Shown: in pieces, positions 22,001-29,931 of the stretch
How the letters are laid out: every line of letters starts with the position of its first letter
Position numbering within the stretch: the first letter of the stretch is position 1
NCBI GenBank assembly: GCA_025361205.1
Contig: JANYAS010000050.1
Span: forward strand, 1-39,372
Length of the DNA stretch: 39,372 nucleotides
Reading direction: 5' to 3'
DNA from: Holophagaceae bacterium
GTDB lineage: Bacteria; Acidobacteriota; Holophagae; Holophagales; Holophagaceae
Program-made: the position numbers and the translations under genes
Notes under the pieces: generated by a model
What the model was told of the DNA's origin: nothing
Database searches by the model: none
What the model saw: only the letters and a program-made list of their open reading frames with translations

Positions 22001-22300
22001 TCACTTCTTCTTCGCAGGCTTGGCGGCTTCCTTCTTGGCGACACCCTTCGACTCTATTTTCGTCGCCACCTGCTTGTAGGTGACGGTCACCTTGTCGCCA
22101 GCCTTTAGGGCGTCCTTGCCTGACGTGTTGCCATCGGTATAGAAGCGCCATTCCTCCTTGCCCAGGTCCAGGGTGAAGCTGTCGGCGGCGACTTCCTTCA
22201 CCAGCCCGGTCTTTTGGTAACTGGCGGCGGCGGCAGCCCAGCCGAGGGCAGCGCCGAGCAAGGCCGTGGCGGAAAGGACTGCGAGGGATTTCATTCGCAT
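22001..22300 (-). CDS. Small secreted/periplasmic protein of unknown function
   Basis: A 99-aa protein with a signal peptide (MRMKSLAVLSATALLGAALG, probably cut near AAAAAS). A short beta-rich mature region follows (GLVKEVAADSFTLDLGKEEWRFY ... GDKVTVTYKQ). This strand pattern is reminiscent of small OB-fold-like DUF5666/NirD-type secreted domains. A Lys/Ala-rich tail (KKEAAKPAKKK) closes it. AGGAGAG upstream supports ATG 22300. It follows the ispH-ubiA fusion gene with a 48-base gap and has its own terminator. I do not recognise the family. Confidence 0.7.
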   Translation of the reverse strand: MRMKSLAVLSATALLGAALGWAAAAASYQKTGLVKEVAADSFTLDLGKEEWRFYTDGNTSGKDALKAGDKVTVTYKQVATKIESKGVAKKEAAKPAKKK

Positions 22301-22348: not shown

Positions 22349-24070
22349 CTAGACCAGTGCCAGCAGGCCCACCAGGTAAAAACTGAGGTCCACGCTGAGC
22401 TCGAAGCGGTTCTTGCCGGTGGTGAACCGCTCGTGGAAGAGCCACAGGTAGAGCACCGGGTAGGCCGCGCAGACCACCAGCACCAGGGCTACGATCATGG
22501 GGTGGCCCTGGCTTCGGTTCTCGAAGGTGAGCCAGAGGGTGCCGGCCAGCAGGGTGCCCAACAATACGAGCAGCACGGTCTTGGTGACGGCCTTCCCCAG
22601 GAAGATCGTCAGGGTCTCCTTGCCGACAATCTGGTCGTTCTGCATATCCCGGATTTCGTAGACCACCGTGCGCACGAAGGCCAGGACGCCCACCAGGTAG
22701 ATGGCCGCGAAGGCCCGCAGATCCCAGACCCGCCCTTCCTGCCACACGGGGATGATGACCGCCACCGTGGCCAGGGCCAGTGCCACCACCACGTCCTTGG
22801 AGCCAGGTATGCTCCGCAGACTGAATTCCCTGCCCCCGAACCGGAAGCGTCGCTTGTAGGTGACGCCCACCAGGGCGGCCCCCGTCACAACAATGAGAAC
22901 CTTGGTCCCCAGGCTGGCTGCCAACCCCAGGGTCAATGCCAACGCCACCAAGGCCGAGACCATCAGGATCCGCCGGTTACGCTCCAGGAAGCGGGCCCGG
23001 GCGGGACCCTTGGCCCCGAGCCCGAGGGGATCCAGGAAGGGACTGAAGAGGTACATGGCAAGCACGTAGGCGGCCGTGAGCACGGGATAGCGCCAGCCCA
23101 GGGGCAGCCCCAGCCAGCGATGCACACCGAGGGTCATCAGCCCCGCGCCCACCGCCATCAGGGACGAGCTGCCGAAGGCCGCCTGCAGGAAGCTACGCCA
23201 GCGGCTGGGGCCATCGCCCAGCTGCTCCAGGACGTCCACCACTTCGTCCACCAGCCAGGTGGGCGTGGAAGCCCCAGCCAGAACTCCCACGGTCTCCTTG
23301 CCGGAAAAGGGGCTCAGGTCCAGTTCGGCGGCAGTTTCCACGTACTGCACGGGCTTGCCGTAGTGGTGCGCGAGTTCGGCCAGATGTTTGGTGTTACTGG
23401 AGGCCTTGCCACCCACCACGATCACGGTATCCACCGTTCGGGCCAGCACCTTGGCCTCGTCCTGGCGCATCCAGGTGTCTTCGCAGATGGTGTTCTCGAA
23501 AACCCCGTCGCCAGCGCGGGTGCGGAGGTAGTCGGTGATCGCGTGGTAATCCTTCACCGTGAAGGTGGTCTGTGCCACCACCAGCACCTTCTTCAACTGC
23601 TCGTCCGGGATGGCTTCCGCTTCGGCCATGGTCGCCACGATGACGCTGCCGCTTTCGGCAAAGCTGCGGTGGGCCACGCTCTCCGCATGCCCGTGGCTGC
23701 CGAGGATCACCGTGAAGTAGCCCTTAGGGCTCCATTTCTTGATCTTGTGGTGGACCTTCGCCACCTCGGGGCAGGTGGCGTTGACGATCTTCAGTTCACC
23801 CTTGGCCTGGCGCTCCTTGAGGCCACGCAAATCCTGGATGGGAATGCCGTGGGCCCGGATCACCACCGTGCCGTTCTGCACCTGATCGGGCGTCTCGGCC
23901 ACCGCCACACCCCGCTTGCCGATCAGCTCCAGGGCCTGCGGGTTGTGGATGAGGGGCCCGAGGGTCTGCACCGTCCGCCCATCGCTCCGCACCGAAGCCT
24001 CCAGCACCGCGTCCATGGCGCGTTTTACGCCCCAGCAGAACCCGGCGGTCTTGGCGACGATGACTTTCAT
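22349..24070 (-). CDS. ispH: Fused IspH (HMBPP reductase) and UbiA-like prenyltransferase domain
   Basis: One continuous 573-aa frame. Residues 1-285 are 4-hydroxy-3-methylbut-2-enyl diphosphate reductase, the last MEP-pathway step giving IPP and DMAPP. The three [4Fe-4S] cysteines are C12 (TAGFCWGVKRA), C100 (NATCPEV) and C196 (NTICEDTWMRQ). Substrate residues H42, H74, H128, E130 and T168/T169 and the GGKASSNTKHL loop are also visible. Residues about 295-573 are a multi-pass membrane domain of the UbiA superfamily. It has YKRRFRFGG...SIPGSKDVVVA and the second Asp motif R474-DMQNDQIVGKETL (D475, D479). The first UbiA motif (NDxxDxxxD) is not recognisable, so activity is uncertain. The start ATG 24070 gives the exact IspH N-terminus. 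No stop or frameshift separates the halves. Confidence 0.9.
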   Translation of the reverse strand: MKVIVAKTAGFCWGVKRAMDAVLEASVRSDGRTVQTLGPLIHNPQALELIGKRGVAVAETPDQVQNGTVVIRAHGIPIQDLRGLKERQAKGELKIVNATCPEVAKVHHKIKKWSPKGYFTVILGSHGHAESVAHRSFAESGSVIVATMAEAEAIPDEQLKKVLVVAQTTFTVKDYHAITDYLRTRAGDGVFENTICEDTWMRQDEAKVLARTVDTVIVVGGKASSNTKHLAELAHHYGKPVQYVETAAELDLSPFSGKETVGVLAGASTPTWLVDEVVDVLEQLGDGPSRWRSFLQAAFGSSSLMAVGAGLMTLGVHRWLGLPLGWRYPVLTAAYVLAMYLFSPFLDPLGLGAKGPARARFLERNRRILMVSALVALALTLGLAASLGTKVLIVVTGAALVGVTYKRRFRFGGREFSLRSIPGSKDVVVALALATVAVIIPVWQEGRVWDLRAFAAIYLVGVLAFVRTVVYEIRDMQNDQIVGKETLTIFLGKAVTKTVLLVLLGTLLAGTLWLTFENRSQGHPMIVALVLVVCAAYPVLYLWLFHERFTTGKNRFELSVDLSFYLVGLLALV

Positions 24071-24651: not shown

Positions 24652-25788
24652 GGCCCACTGATCGGGGCCCGGGGGCTGCTCGCTATGGGAAGGGGACGCA
24701 AGCGATTCGACGGAATTCACGTGGCGCCGGGGGTGCAGCAGGGCTCTATCCACGAACACCACCGCTGCCAGGAGGACCAACGCCCCCAGACCGAGGTACG
24801 ACACCGGCTGGGCCCAGGCCCTGGGCAGATCCCGGGCCATGGGTAAGGCGGCCAGCGACAACAGCAGGGGTGACACCACCCAGGCCCGTCCGCCCAGGTG
24901 GTCCATGAGCCAGTGGTGCAGGTGACTCCGATCCGCGTGGCCCAGAGGCTGACCGGTGGTCCACCGGATGGCCACGACTGTGGTCACATCCAGGATGGGG
25001 TAGGCCATGAGAAAAAACGCCAGACCGCGATGCCAGGGCAGCGACCGGTTCAACACCAGGATGGCGAAGAGGGTGCCCAGGGCCAAGGCCCCGGCATCCC
25101 CCATGAAGTGGCGGGCCTTGGGATAGTTTAGGAGCAGCAGCACCACCAGCACCCCCCAGAGTGGTGCTGCCCCGGCCCCCAGCAGGGACCCGGGGCCCAC
25201 GCTGAGCGCCGCCAGCAACAAGAGGGAGAAGCCCAGGGACAGACCATTGAGCCCGTCGATGAGGTTGAAGGCGTGGGGAATCGCCCAGTACCACATGGTC
25301 AGCAGGGGGAAGTACACCTGGGCGTGATTGGGGATGTTGAAGCCGAACAGCGTCACGTTCTGGCTGAGGTGAAGCATCTCCCAGGTGTGCACTGCGGCCA
25401 GGGGTAGGGCCAGCAGCAGCCCGACCAAGGCCTTCCACCGGGCCCGCAGGTCATAGCGGTCATCCAGAATGCCCAAGGCGCCCATGACCACCACCGTGCC
25501 CCATTCCAGAGAGGTCATGCCCAGGGAGAGCCAGCCCATCAGCTTGGCCCCCACTATCACGATCAGCAGCACCAGCCCCCCGATCAGGGGGATGGCCCGG
25601 TCGTGCTGTTTCCGCCCCGAGGGCTCGTCCATCCAGCCCAGGGGCCCCACCCACTTGGCCAACGCCAACACCAGGACCAAGGTGGCCAGGGCGAAGGCTA
25701 GCGCGATGCGGATGGCTGACGGCATGAACGACCAGGGAAGACGGGTTTGAAATGCAGTTTCAATTGGATGAGACCACCCTATCTGCAT
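24649..25788 (-). CDS. WecA/MraY-family undecaprenyl-phosphate sugar-1-phosphate transferase
   Basis: A 379-aa polytopic membrane enzyme (about ten or eleven segments) that transfers a sugar-1-phosphate from a UDP-sugar to a polyprenyl phosphate, starting O-antigen, enterobacterial-common-antigen-like or exopolysaccharide synthesis. Visible motifs are GGLVLLIVIV after the first loop, GILDDRYDLRARWK (Asp pair), FNLIDGLNGLSLG, KARHFMGDAGALALG and the HADRSHLHHWL loop of the WecA group. AGGA upstream supports ATG 25788. The stop TAA (24649-24651) is the outermost triplet of the adjacent inverted-repeat element, so the natural C-terminus may have been altered. MraY itself is less likely because of the HxHH loop and the context. 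Confidence 0.88.
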   Translation of the reverse strand: MQIGWSHPIETAFQTRLPWSFMPSAIRIALAFALATLVLVLALAKWVGPLGWMDEPSGRKQHDRAIPLIGGLVLLIVIVGAKLMGWLSLGMTSLEWGTVVVMGALGILDDRYDLRARWKALVGLLLALPLAAVHTWEMLHLSQNVTLFGFNIPNHAQVYFPLLTMWYWAIPHAFNLIDGLNGLSLGFSLLLLAALSVGPGSLLGAGAAPLWGVLVVLLLLNYPKARHFMGDAGALALGTLFAILVLNRSLPWHRGLAFFLMAYPILDVTTVVAIRWTTGQPLGHADRSHLHHWLMDHLGGRAWVVSPLLLSLAALPMARDLPRAWAQPVSYLGLGALVLLAAVVFVDRALLHPRRHVNSVESLASPSHSEQPPGPDQWA

Positions 25789-25952
25789 AGGGGTTCCTTT
25801 TCTAATGATACTGTGGCGACGGAAGCCCCATGCTCAGCACTGAAGGCGACTAAAGTCATGAAGTTGATGCTGCCTTCGGTGGACGCGGACTCCTGCCCAG
25901 GGAAGGCCATACACTGAATCGTTGGCAGACAGAAAAACGCGAGATCCCGAAC

Positions 25953-26324
25953 TTGTCTGTGACGTTCTCCCAACCCTCGCTTCCCAAACGAATTCCCCCC
26001 ATGCATCTGGCCATCGCGTCGTGCTACGCCGGGCTGGTGGGCGACCCGGAGTTGAGGGTCCAAATTTTCAGCCGAATCCACGTGGAATGCGAGGCCTCCA
26101 TCGACGGCCTCAAAGCCATCACCGGGCAGCCAGAGCTCCTGCTGAAGACCAACCCCACCCTGCAGCGCTCCATCCTGCACCGCTTCTCCTGCCTGGATCC
26201 CATGAACCACCTGCCGGTGGAGCTGCTGCGCCGCTACCGGGCGGGCGACCGCGACCCCCTCACCGGGCGAGGCATCCTGCTCTCCATCAATGGCATCGCT
26301 GCGGGCCTCCGGAACAGCGGCTGA
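25953..26324 (+). pseudogene. ppc: C-terminal remnant of phosphoenolpyruvate carboxylase
   Basis: About 110 codons translate to the end of PEP carboxylase. From ATG 26001 the match includes LAIASCYAGLV, ITGQPELL, LDPMNHLPVELLRRYRAGD and the terminal INGIAAGLRNSG (family consensus ...GIAAG.RNTG). Weak likeness continues a little upstream (to about 25955). The frame is open back to a stop at 25851, but the large catalytic body (about 750-800 residues) is absent. A fragment this short cannot be active. It probably marks a deletion or rearrangement next to the WecA-like gene. A short protein with a TTG (25953) or ATG (26001) start remains possible. Confidence 0.65.
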
Positions 26325-26328
26325 CCGA

Positions 26329-27507
26329 TTATTCCGCCGTTGCACCGAGGGGTTCCAACGGCGGCGCGGCCGTGATCCAGCGGCGACGCAGGGCCCGTTC
26401 ACAGCGGCTGGAGATGGTCCTCGCCACCAGCCAGCCCAGCAGCCAGGAGAGGGCCACCGCCGGGACGTACCAGAGGACGCCCCACCAAAGGCCCCCACTG
26501 CACGCCCGAAAGACTCGGACCACCAGGAACACCACGAACATGTGGGTGAGGTAGATCTCGTAGCTCAGGCGTCCAAAGGAGCGCAGCCAACCCGTGCCCG
26601 GGAATGGGTGGGCGGGGGTGCTGGTTTCCTGCCAGTGGAAGGAGAGGACCAGACCCACTGCCGACCCAGTCAGCACGAGAAGAACGCCGTTTCCCAGGAC
26701 GGGCCAAAGTTTTCCTTCAAAACAGAACACGGCCACCAGGCCCCCCGTACCACAAGCTCGCAGCAACATCACAGCCCAGCGTCGCTGCGGACGGAAGCGG
26801 GCCGCGATGAGGGCCCCGAGGACCCCAGCGGCAATGCCGGCCATGCCCGGCAGGTAGGCCTTCTCCTGCCAGATTTCGTTCCCCGCCAAAGCGGCCCTGG
26901 CAGCCGGTAGCGAAAGCGCGAGGAGGACCAAGACGGGCACCAGGAACCTGTCCCGGCGAAGCCCCAGGCACAGCAGGGGAAAGCCCAGGTAGAAGACCTC
27001 TTCGATGGAGAGGGACCACAAAACATCCCAGCCGCCCGGAAGGTAACCCGTGTGCCCCTCGTACCAGTTCAGGTGCAGGCCCAGCGCCGAAAAGATGGCC
27101 CGAGGGAGGGACTGATTGGCGTGACTGATGACATAGTCCCGGGCCCCTACCAGGTGCAGCACGCTGAGAACAGCCACCAGGATCGCCAGGCAGGGGAGGA
27201 TCCGCGCGGCGCGGCGGACGTAGAAGGTGCGGACGTCGATGGCGCCCAGGCTGCCCCAGCGGATCAATGTGTTCGTCGTGATGAGAAACCCCGAGATCAC
27301 GAAGAACACGAACACGGCCTCGTACCCGTTGTAGATCAGCGCACTGAGCAGCCATTTTGGCAGGAAAGTAGCCAGCACCCCTTGCTTGAGGGGAATGCGC
27401 AACCCCACGTGATGCATCACCACCAGCACGATGGACAGGCCGCGCAGGAGGTCGATGCCAGGGCTGCGGGCCGGGAGGGCCACTACGGGCCGATCGGAGC
27501 CGGTCAC
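26329..27507 (-). CDS. Acyltransferase family 3 (OafA/YrhL-like) membrane protein
   Basis: A polytopic protein (about ten membrane segments) that O-acylates cell-surface sugars. The family opening PGIDLLRGLSIVLVVMHH, with the catalytic-type His, is followed by FFVISGFLIT, the RRAARILP motif and WSLSIEEVFYL. The late GRLSYEIYLTHMFVVFL segment is also typical. The start is uncertain: GTG 27507 is used here (392 aa). The open frame reaches GTG 27615, but that lies inside a terminator hairpin, so it is not credible. It may act on a surface polysaccharide begun by the WecA-like enzyme 0.5 kb downstream. Confidence 0.85.
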   Translation of the reverse strand: MTGSDRPVVALPARSPGIDLLRGLSIVLVVMHHVGLRIPLKQGVLATFLPKWLLSALIYNGYEAVFVFFVISGFLITTNTLIRWGSLGAIDVRTFYVRRAARILPCLAILVAVLSVLHLVGARDYVISHANQSLPRAIFSALGLHLNWYEGHTGYLPGGWDVLWSLSIEEVFYLGFPLLCLGLRRDRFLVPVLVLLALSLPAARAALAGNEIWQEKAYLPGMAGIAAGVLGALIAARFRPQRRWAVMLLRACGTGGLVAVFCFEGKLWPVLGNGVLLVLTGSAVGLVLSFHWQETSTPAHPFPGTGWLRSFGRLSYEIYLTHMFVVFLVVRVFRACSGGLWWGVLWYVPAVALSWLLGWLVARTISSRCERALRRRWITAAPPLEPLGATAE

Positions 27508-27650: not shown

Positions 27651-29882
27651 TCAGTCCTCAGCCACCGCAAAGGCCGGGGCCGCATCCGCAACTTCACGGT
27701 TAGGCACGGTTTTCTCGGCAGTCCGCCAGCCCCAGGCACCCATGACGGCCTTGAAGGTGAAGAGGATCACGGCGAGGGCGCCGAAGCCGAAGATCACGTC
27801 GCCCGGCACGCGCAGCCAGGTGAAGGTGCGCATGAGGGGGCTCTGCACCACTGCGGCGCTACGGGCATACCAGGTGCCGTGTTCGAGGCTCTGGACGAAC
27901 TGGTAGAGGCCGCTGGGGATCAGCGAGCACACCAGCATGAGGATCAGGCCCAGGTTCAGGCCCCAAAAGCCGAAGCCCAGCCACTTCTCGTCCCAGGCCT
28001 TGTCGGGGGTCATGCCGCGCAGGGAGAACAGCATGAGCGAGATCGCCAGGAAGCCGTAGACCCCGAAGAGCGCGGCGTGGCTGTGGATGGGCGTGGTGTT
28101 GAGGCCCTGGCTGAAGTAGAGGATCGAGGGCGGGTTGATCATCATACCGAAGACGCCGGCGCCGATCAGGTTCCAGAAACACACGGCCGCGAAGAACTTG
28201 AAAGGCCACTCGTAGCCGCTGCCGATGGCGCGGCCGGCCTTGAGGCTCTGGGCGATCTCGAAGCCCACGATGGTGAGGGGCACGATCTCCAGGGCGCTGA
28301 ACACGGAGCCCAGGGCCGAAATGGAGGCCGGGGACCCCGAGAAGTAGAGGTGGTGGAAAGTGCCGATGATGCCGCTGCCCAGGAACAGGCCCACGGAGAG
28401 GCTCACGGCGCGCAGGGCGGTGCTTTCGCGCAGCAGGCCCATGCGGGTGGTGAGCAGGGCGATGGCCACCGTGGCGAAGACTTCGAAGAAGCCCTCCACC
28501 CAGAGGTGAACCACCCACCAGCGCCAGTATTCGGCCATGGCGATGTGGGTTTCCCGGGTGTACATGAAGCCCGCGGAGTAGAACAGCGGGATGGCGATGG
28601 CGGACAGCACGAAGAGTTTGAGCAGGCCCACCCGCCCCTTTTCGCCGCGTAGGGCAGGCAGCAGGGCCCGCACCACCATCACCAGCCAAAAGACCATGCC
28701 GACGGTGAGGAGGATCTGCCAGAGGCGGCCCAGTTCCACGTATTCGTAGCCCTGGTGGCCTAGCATGAAAGAACCCGACAACTTGCCGATGATGGCCTGG
28801 TGGGCGCCGGTCAACGCGCCGACGACCACCACCACGAGCGCCACCAGCAGGCCGGCGACGCCGAGCCACTGGCCCTTGGGTTCCTTGGCACTGAGCTTGG
28901 GGCCCAGGTAGAGGCCCGTGGCCAGCCAGCAGGTGGCGATCCAGAAGACGGCCAGTTGTAGGTGCCAGGTGCGGGAGGCGGCGTAGGGCAGGATGCGGGA
29001 GAGATCAAGACCGTAGAGTCCGTTACCTTCCACGGCGTCGTGGGCCGTGAGGATCCCCATGCCGATCTGCACCAGGAACAGGGCCATGGCCACGGCGAAG
29101 TAGATGGCGGCCCAGCGCTGGCTGGGGGTGGCGGGCGCCGCGGGAATGGCCATGGGCTCGGGGAAGGCCTCCGCGGGCTGGCTGGCGTGATGCCAGATCA
29201 TGAGGCCTACCCCCAGGATCAGCAGCACGATGGACAGGATGCTCCAGAGGTGGCTGATGGGGGTGATCGTGTTGCCGACCAGGGGCTCCTGGGGCCAGTT
29301 CTGGGTGTAGCTATGGGCCGTATCGGGGCGGCGGGTCGAGGCGCTCCAGGCCGTCCAGAGCCAGAAGTCGGCCACGCGCTCGGCCTCCTGCTGCGTCGGG
29401 ATCCAGCGCGCGGGGATAGCAGCTTCTTTGTCGCCCCCGAAGGCGACCTTCGCCAACTCGGCGCGGGTCTGGAGGTAGGCCTGAGCTTGCGAGGCACCCA
29501 GCTTCAGGGTGCCGGTGGTTGTTTCATAAGTGTTTGTCTGAAATTGGGAGATGGTGCGAGCCTTGGCTTCCGCCAGGGATACGCCCTGGGATGAGACGCC
29601 ATCCAGGGTATGGGCCGCCCACTGGTGCAGCGCCTTGGCCGTCCAGTCCGGGGCCAAATAGGAACCGTGGCCCAGGATGGAACCGATGTGCTGGCCCCCA
29701 TGGCCCAGGTAGCTGACCTGGCCGGCGAGGATCTGGCCGGGCCCCACCAGCAGGGTGCCATCCTCGGCCACCACCCGCTGAGGTATCGGCGGCGCGTTTT
29801 GGGCGATCTGCCTCCCACCCAACCCCAGCACGCCAAAGCCCGCCAGGAGCACCAGCAACACCAGCCACCACCTTGCCTTCAT
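27651..29882 (-). CDS. norB: Quinol-dependent nitric oxide reductase (qNor, single subunit)
   Basis: A 743-aa haem-copper-superfamily enzyme reducing 2 NO to N2O at the inner membrane with quinol electrons. An N-terminal membrane segment leads to a periplasmic cytochrome-c-like domain without a CxxCH haem motif, the qNor hallmark (residues about 30-210). The catalytic core follows. The low-spin haem ligand is H307 (RTWHLQLAVFW). FeB ligands are H459 (WWVVHLWVEGFFEVF, with the nearby Glu residues E463 and E467), H510 and H511 (GTFHHLYFSG). Haem ligands H600 and H602 are in TPIHSHAALFG. GGAGG sets ATG 29882. It stands alone, without norC, nitrite reductase or a nearby regulator, which fits NO detoxification or a partial denitrifier. 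Confidence 0.96.
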   Translation of the reverse strand: MKARWWLVLLVLLAGFGVLGLGGRQIAQNAPPIPQRVVAEDGTLLVGPGQILAGQVSYLGHGGQHIGSILGHGSYLAPDWTAKALHQWAAHTLDGVSSQGVSLAEAKARTISQFQTNTYETTTGTLKLGASQAQAYLQTRAELAKVAFGGDKEAAIPARWIPTQQEAERVADFWLWTAWSASTRRPDTAHSYTQNWPQEPLVGNTITPISHLWSILSIVLLILGVGLMIWHHASQPAEAFPEPMAIPAAPATPSQRWAAIYFAVAMALFLVQIGMGILTAHDAVEGNGLYGLDLSRILPYAASRTWHLQLAVFWIATCWLATGLYLGPKLSAKEPKGQWLGVAGLLVALVVVVVGALTGAHQAIIGKLSGSFMLGHQGYEYVELGRLWQILLTVGMVFWLVMVVRALLPALRGEKGRVGLLKLFVLSAIAIPLFYSAGFMYTRETHIAMAEYWRWWVVHLWVEGFFEVFATVAIALLTTRMGLLRESTALRAVSLSVGLFLGSGIIGTFHHLYFSGSPASISALGSVFSALEIVPLTIVGFEIAQSLKAGRAIGSGYEWPFKFFAAVCFWNLIGAGVFGMMINPPSILYFSQGLNTTPIHSHAALFGVYGFLAISLMLFSLRGMTPDKAWDEKWLGFGFWGLNLGLILMLVCSLIPSGLYQFVQSLEHGTWYARSAAVVQSPLMRTFTWLRVPGDVIFGFGALAVILFTFKAVMGAWGWRTAEKTVPNREVADAAPAFAVAED

Positions 29883-29931
29883 GGGAACCTCCATCTTTGG
29901 CGCATCTGAACGCCGAAGAGCAGTGTTCCAT

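Follow-up and report, generated by a model that had tools for sequence, protein, structure and literature searches.

A single frame for IspH and a UbiA-fold domain

The locus described here raises the question of what a UbiA-fold membrane domain does when it forms one protein with IspH, an essential enzyme of isoprenoid synthesis that is the last of the MEP pathway and elsewhere a drug target. Within the window (i.e. the whole stretch of 39,372 nucleotides of the Holophagaceae contig JANYAS010000050.1 that was analysed), the minus strand from 24070 to 22349 carries a single frame of 573 codons that runs from ATG to stop without interruption, and orthologous frames of 564-584 aa occur in many genomes. 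The first-pass annotation of this DNA had placed an uninterrupted IspH-UbiA frame at 22349-24070 (leaving the strand unstated), which is borne out by the frame itself and by the occurrence of the same frame in relatives, and the single-protein fusion is hereby confirmed as real. Structure prediction, which that annotation had proposed as a check, gave an AlphaFold2 model (mean pLDDT 80) with an IspH fold, a poorly defined linker at residues 286-295 and UbiA-fold helices, and a second model, of the relative at locus L057, has the same helices. Foldseek matched both halves of the model, finding the IspH structures 3dnf and 3szu first and UbiA structures after them. The linker proper (residues 282-289; 23204..23227, minus strand) varies in length among lineages.

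The IspH half

The N-terminal half (residues 3-281; 23228..24064, minus strand) matches PF02401 (LYTB) with 263.5 bits (E 2.5e-78; cut-off 24.5) over positions 1-266 of the 267 in the profile, and TIGR00216 with 251.5 bits (cut-off 187.85). The three cluster cysteines, all encoded on the minus strand, are invariant among the fusions: C12 (24035..24037) and C100 (23771..23773) in 77/77 each, and C196 (23483..23485) in 78/78. H42, H74, H128, E130, T168, S224, N226 and S268 are present as well and essentially invariant in an alignment of 76-79 sequences, the exceptions at active-site positions being Ser/Ala variation at 225 and a single Thr/Ser at 168. The domain is thus a complete IspH with its three cluster cysteines and its substrate His, Glu and Thr, as had been read from the sequence initially.

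A search of the whole genome of this Geothrix-like bacterium found no IspH besides the fusion, and no second IspH was found in nine other fusion-lineage genomes examined. Since it is the only IspH of its genome and its catalytic residues are invariant or nearly so, we infer that the IspH half must be the working HMBPP reductase of the cell.

The UbiA half

The C-terminal half (residues 290-573; 22352..23203, minus strand) is a UbiA-fold membrane domain of 8-9 membrane helices, modelled by AlphaFold2 as eight long helices and a short ninth. PF01040 (UbiA) matches residues 371-545 with 45.2 bits (cut-off 34.2), over profile positions 71-234 only, and because the match starts at position 71 the segment of the first Asp motif is not recognised by this profile. 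Foldseek relates the half to AfUbiA (4tq3/4tq4) and ApUbiA (4od4) with E about 1e-5, and gives UBIAD1 chain 8djk as a weak fold match; a sequence search of the PDB with a profile of the UbiA half found no UbiA chain. The multi-pass UbiA-like domain of roughly 280 residues proposed earlier is therefore upheld, both by PF01040 above its cut-off and by the fold of the predicted structure.

None of the NCBIfam equivalogs for MenA, UbiA, MqnP, heme O synthase or DGGGP synthase is reached by this half (best 34.9 bits against a cut-off of 238), and the fused UbiA domains of other lineages likewise reach no NCBIfam prenyltransferase cut-off. That it might be the MenA, MqnP, heme O or DGGGP enzyme of the cell was considered and rejected: the scores do not support it, and MqnP-like and heme O-like genes are encoded separately. 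In fact, when the genome was searched for separate copies of both partners (a check that the first-pass annotation had named), there was no separate ispH, and four other UbiA-family genes were present (one MqnP-like, two heme O synthase-like and one assigned to none), all of them below the strict equivalog cut-offs, with the MqnP-like one passing TIGR01475. The unassigned gene (L006, 602-2280) lies directly after a 261-aa frame and before a D-Ala-D-Ala carboxypeptidase-like gene. The genome also has two polyprenyl synthase genes separate from the fusion, and a weak sixth UbiA match (C45) was discarded, as it falls inside a polyprenyl synthase gene.

An altered but conserved active site

The second Asp motif, which had been noticed at the outset, is intact: residues 474-486 (RDMQNDQIVGKET; 22613..22651, minus strand) hold the DxxxD of RDMQNDQIVGKETL, with D475 and D479 invariant in 47/47 Holophagaceae and in most other lineages. 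The remark that there was no clear first motif was also right, SPFLDPLGL standing in its place, without gaps against the NQLNDTKTF of Nitrospinota. This degenerate segment (residues 343-367, SPFLDPLGLGAKGPARARFLERNRR; 22970..23044, minus strand) aligns gaplessly across the fusions, with MY before it and P and F after it. Relative to NDxxDxxxD, AfUbiA N68, D72 and D76 correspond to S343, D347 and L351 (equivalences to AfUbiA being mapped by sequence motif, not by coordinate superposition), so that only the D72 position is kept. A conserved basic loop (residues 417-429, SLRSIPGSKDVVV; 22784..22822, minus strand) contains the invariant P422 and K425, and both K425 and the near-universal Tyr (equivalent to AfUbiA Tyr139) are invariant in Holophagaceae.

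The importance of these positions is known from AfUbiA, where Mg is coordinated by two first-motif residues (N68, D72) and two second-motif residues (D198, D202); N68A, D72A, R22A and K146A abolish GPP binding, while D198A and D202A weaken it 45-fold and 21-fold, and in EcMenA function is lost on mutating the equivalents of the motif residues and of Tyr139 (PMC4106721). Among the 47 Holophagaceae sequences the N68 equivalent is Ser in 25, Thr in 17, Ala in 3 and Asn in 2 (i.e. S/T/A in 45/47), and the D72 equivalent is Asp in 44 and Glu in 3. Other lineages differ: Arg occupies the D72 position in all six sequences of Nitrospinota group A (L109-L114; LTNQLLRPKE), whereas Nitrospinota group B and a third group keep the equivalents of N68, D72, D198 and D202. 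The third Asp of the first motif (D76) is lost in every fusion examined. The second motif is broken in two other Acidobacteriota families, with D198/D202 changed to V/N in f18 and D198 to N in f8; these losses (V/N and N) are seen at loci L091 (genome G021) and L143 (genome G006), where the IspH is intact. To explain the broken site, the full-length tree requires five changes, of which well-supported branches force at least four, although some of the changes may be reversals, since the label "broken" rests on few positions and two Holophagaceae keep the Asn.

The altered site is not simply decaying. Pairwise comparison of 21 Holophagaceae genes gives a median dN/dS of 0.090 in the IspH half and 0.19 in the UbiA half, compared to 0.098 for the altered first-motif segment (residues 338-370) and 0.058 for the second motif (residues 463-492), the most constrained part; ranked by conservation in Holophagaceae, the first-motif segment also falls within the top 7% of 25-residue stretches of the UbiA half. 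Low dN/dS together with this high conservation means that the UbiA site, changed as it is, is kept under strong purifying selection and is not drifting.

Distribution and origin

When 84,980 species genomes were scanned, 53 loci emerged, and in about 48 of them one frame (569-583 aa) holds the whole protein. They come from many Geothrix and other Holophagaceae genomes, isolates included (e.g. Geothrix fermentans DSM 14018), and from MAGs labelled Nitrospinota or Nitrospirae, and many of the fusion loci overall are from MAGs. Geothrix is an Fe(III) reducer, and such cultured carriers make the fusion experimentally testable. With a profile of the UbiA half, the fusion was found in 15 of the 119 genomes of a sampled draw of Acidobacteriota (from the genus, the family and the class to which this bacterium belongs, as well as from two other families) and in 19/24 genomes of the Nitrospinota group, with strong fusion matches in 11/77 genomes of the third group. 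Frames with a profile match are always of fusion length unless truncated by a contig end, a weak match of 274 aa being the one other exception, and with these same exceptions all matches below E 1e-12 lie in fusion-length frames, leaving no clear separate-gene version of the UbiA half. Five Nitrospinota genomes gave no match; in four of them no IspH is detectable and in the fifth a fragment of IspH lies at the end of a contig, whereas fusion-less genomes of the Acidobacteriota and the third group mostly carry a separate IspH. Viral contigs gave one match, to the IspH part only.

In a tree with 15 separate IspHs, the 38 fused IspH domains form one clade (support 100/98), with long branches among the separate IspHs restricting any statement on the nearest outgroup. 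Because the fused IspHs form one clade and share the same frame across lineages, the data point to a single old fusion and not to a sequencing error; most simply, judged by these sequences, one fusion event would have been followed by vertical descent or by transfer between phyla. Two observations had been named beforehand as fatal to the fusion, a sequencing error between its halves and relatives that always have two genes, and neither came true: a search of related genomes, also suggested at that time, found the two-domain protein as one gene in Holophagaceae, other Acidobacteriota, Nitrospinota and the third group. That sequencing or assembly joined two genes by mistake is accordingly almost inconceivable and was rejected, given the identical single-frame architecture in about 48 scan loci, in isolates and in other phyla.

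Relation to known systems

The first-pass annotation had implied that the architecture was new, which it is not. Rao et al. (2015) reported a set of 47 IspH-UbiA fusions, which according to them belong without exception to sulfate reducers, stated the function of the UbiA half to be unknown, suggested that IspH supplies a UbiA-like prenyltransferase and is itself localised by the UbiA half, and obtained mostly truncated protein in expression attempts; CDD subgroup PT_UbiA_5 is a feature of their fusions (PMC4746011). The window protein has the defining arrangement, UbiA at the C-terminus of IspH in one protein, and shares with the "Rosetta stone" fusions of Desulfobacterales the order and size of an IspH followed by a 9-helix UbiA-like domain, as well as the presence of separate UbiA/MenA genes in the genome (PMC4746011). 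By their published description, however, the Desulfobacterales proteins have two DXXXD motifs, whereas the window protein has only the second, and the earlier set was confined to sulfate-reducing anaerobes, in contrast to the Acidobacteriota (Geothrix/Holophagaceae) and Nitrospinota reported here (PMC4746011). The IspH-RPS1 fusions of Firmicutes (NF000907) likewise have an N-terminal IspH in a two-domain protein, but their partner is ribosomal protein S1, and only the IspH part of the window protein matches that model (264 bits against a cut-off of 624).

What appears to be new are the Acidobacteriota and Nitrospinota members, their probable single origin, the lack of a second IspH, and the loss of the first motif with its independent repeats. 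The spread to these phyla and the repeated loss of UbiA catalytic residues are absent from the 2015 report, and no later work studying the fusion in Acidobacteriota or Nitrospinota was found in the open-access literature.

What the UbiA half may do

The permanent joining of IspH to a membrane UbiA domain leads one to ask in what way the IspH step connects with prenyl metabolism in the membrane. The first-pass annotation held that the fusion tethers precursor supply to the membrane and perhaps to a prenylation step. The first part largely stands, as the fusion is real and should tether IspH, which very likely is membrane-anchored if the predicted helices insert. The prenylation step is doubtful, as this lineage, and others independently of it, carry substitutions at residues on which GPP binding by AfUbiA and the activity of EcMenA depend. 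In the mechanism that we propose, the N-terminal half would make IPP and DMAPP on the cytoplasmic side via its 4Fe-4S cluster, while the UbiA-fold half would hold it in the inner membrane, with its pocket presumably on the same cytoplasmic face. The pocket of this lineage retains the second Asp motif, the Tyr and the Lys and has lost the first-motif Asn and the third Asp, because of which ordinary Mg-dependent prenyl transfer would be unlikely as its main job. It would rather anchor IspH or act as a scaffold, so that precursors are made next to the membrane prenyl enzymes, and might still bind a prenyl-phosphate lipid. Whether selection maintains the domain chiefly as an anchor, a scaffold or a binder of prenyl lipids, and less as a classical prenyltransferase, is, in our judgement, an even call. 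The repeated loss of prenyl-diphosphate-binding residues argues for localisation or scaffolding, perhaps with ligand binding, as the shared function, and against the simple idea that IspH feeds a prenyltransferase. A bare anchor is doubtful in turn, because the equivalents of D72 and D198/D202, the Tyr and the Lys are kept and motif 2 is the most constrained part; moreover, motif 1 retains its Asn and Asp in other lineages, Mg binding could still be possible with Ser or Thr, and no operon partner conserved across phyla hints at a scaffold.

An active UbiA prenyltransferase, fed by the attached IspH through a high local concentration of IPP and DMAPP (the latter perhaps as direct donor), is less probable than the anchoring reading. 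It stays a serious rival, with altered Mg binding, because motif 2 and the Tyr are invariant in this lineage, as is K425, with the strongest purifying selection on motif 2. The fold, the second Asp motif and the Tyr are shared with AfUbiA/ApUbiA (PDB 4tq3-4tq6, 4od4/4od5), of which AfUbiA binds DMAPP (4tq4); one Nitrospinota group and the third group retain all four Mg-coordinating residues, and in five Nitrospinota loci an O-methyltransferase-like gene lies just downstream. Compared to AfUbiA/ApUbiA, however, the fusion has the Asn and third Asp of motif 1 replaced, besides having IspH attached, and transfer has to be reconciled with at least four changes at residues that AfUbiA and EcMenA need, with the absence of the third Asp from every fusion examined and with the failure to reach any NCBIfam prenyltransferase cut-off. 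Rather improbable, although suggested by analogy, is a prenyl-diphosphate sensor, in which the UbiA pocket would bind a long-chain prenyl phosphate and feed back on the activity or stability of IspH. In humans, UBIAD1 binds to HMG-CoA reductase, from which geranylgeraniol or a geranylgeranyl lipid displaces it, whereas its N102S variant stays bound and resists geranylgeraniol (PMC4374513), and N102 is equivalent to AfUbiA N68 (PMC4106721), i.e. the position at which Holophagaceae often have Ser. There too a UbiA protein is physically linked to a reductase that supplies isoprenoid precursors, and UBIAD1 is among the fold matches (if a weak one); the likeness is nevertheless one of working only, between proteins that are not close relatives, the eukaryotic pair being separate proteins of the mevalonate pathway with a known regulation that is putative here (PMC4374513). 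Loss of the Asn should also weaken prenyl-diphosphate binding, so that at most some lineages could sense in this way. A slightly fainter prospect still is that the UbiA half, as a pseudoenzyme, senses prenyl lipids of the membrane and thereby controls IspH activity, certain lineages having lost the ligand site in the manner of N102S; if true, bacteria would have, within a single protein of the MEP pathway, an equivalent of the UBIAD1/HMG-CoA reductase pairing.

Genomic neighbourhood

Across the fusion loci of the examined lineages, no operon partner is conserved between phyla. In Geothrix the neighbours are polA and an SDR gene, one Holophagaceae group has cytochrome c assembly genes nearby, and one Nitrospinota group has parA/parB-like genes (identified by eye, from sequence); in the Arg-bearing Nitrospinota lineage such genes lie directly downstream of the fusion in three loci (L131-L133). 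The O-methyltransferase-like gene of the five Nitrospinota loci (Methyltransf_2 with a dimerisation domain; L057 9749-10756, and L056, L058, L127 and L129) directly follows the fusion on the same strand, and its product could act on a prenylated product.

In the window itself, a 99-aa secreted-looking protein is encoded just downstream of the fusion (22001-22300, minus strand), with weak matches to DUF5666 and ExtJ that are both below cut-off. A 239-aa frame at 25779-26498 (minus strand) has no Pfam match and overlaps its neighbours, and may be a real gene or a chance frame. Further along, the protein encoded at 27651-29894 (minus strand) is NorB-like, combines a cytochrome c-like domain with a COX1 domain and is probably a quinol-dependent nitric oxide reductase.
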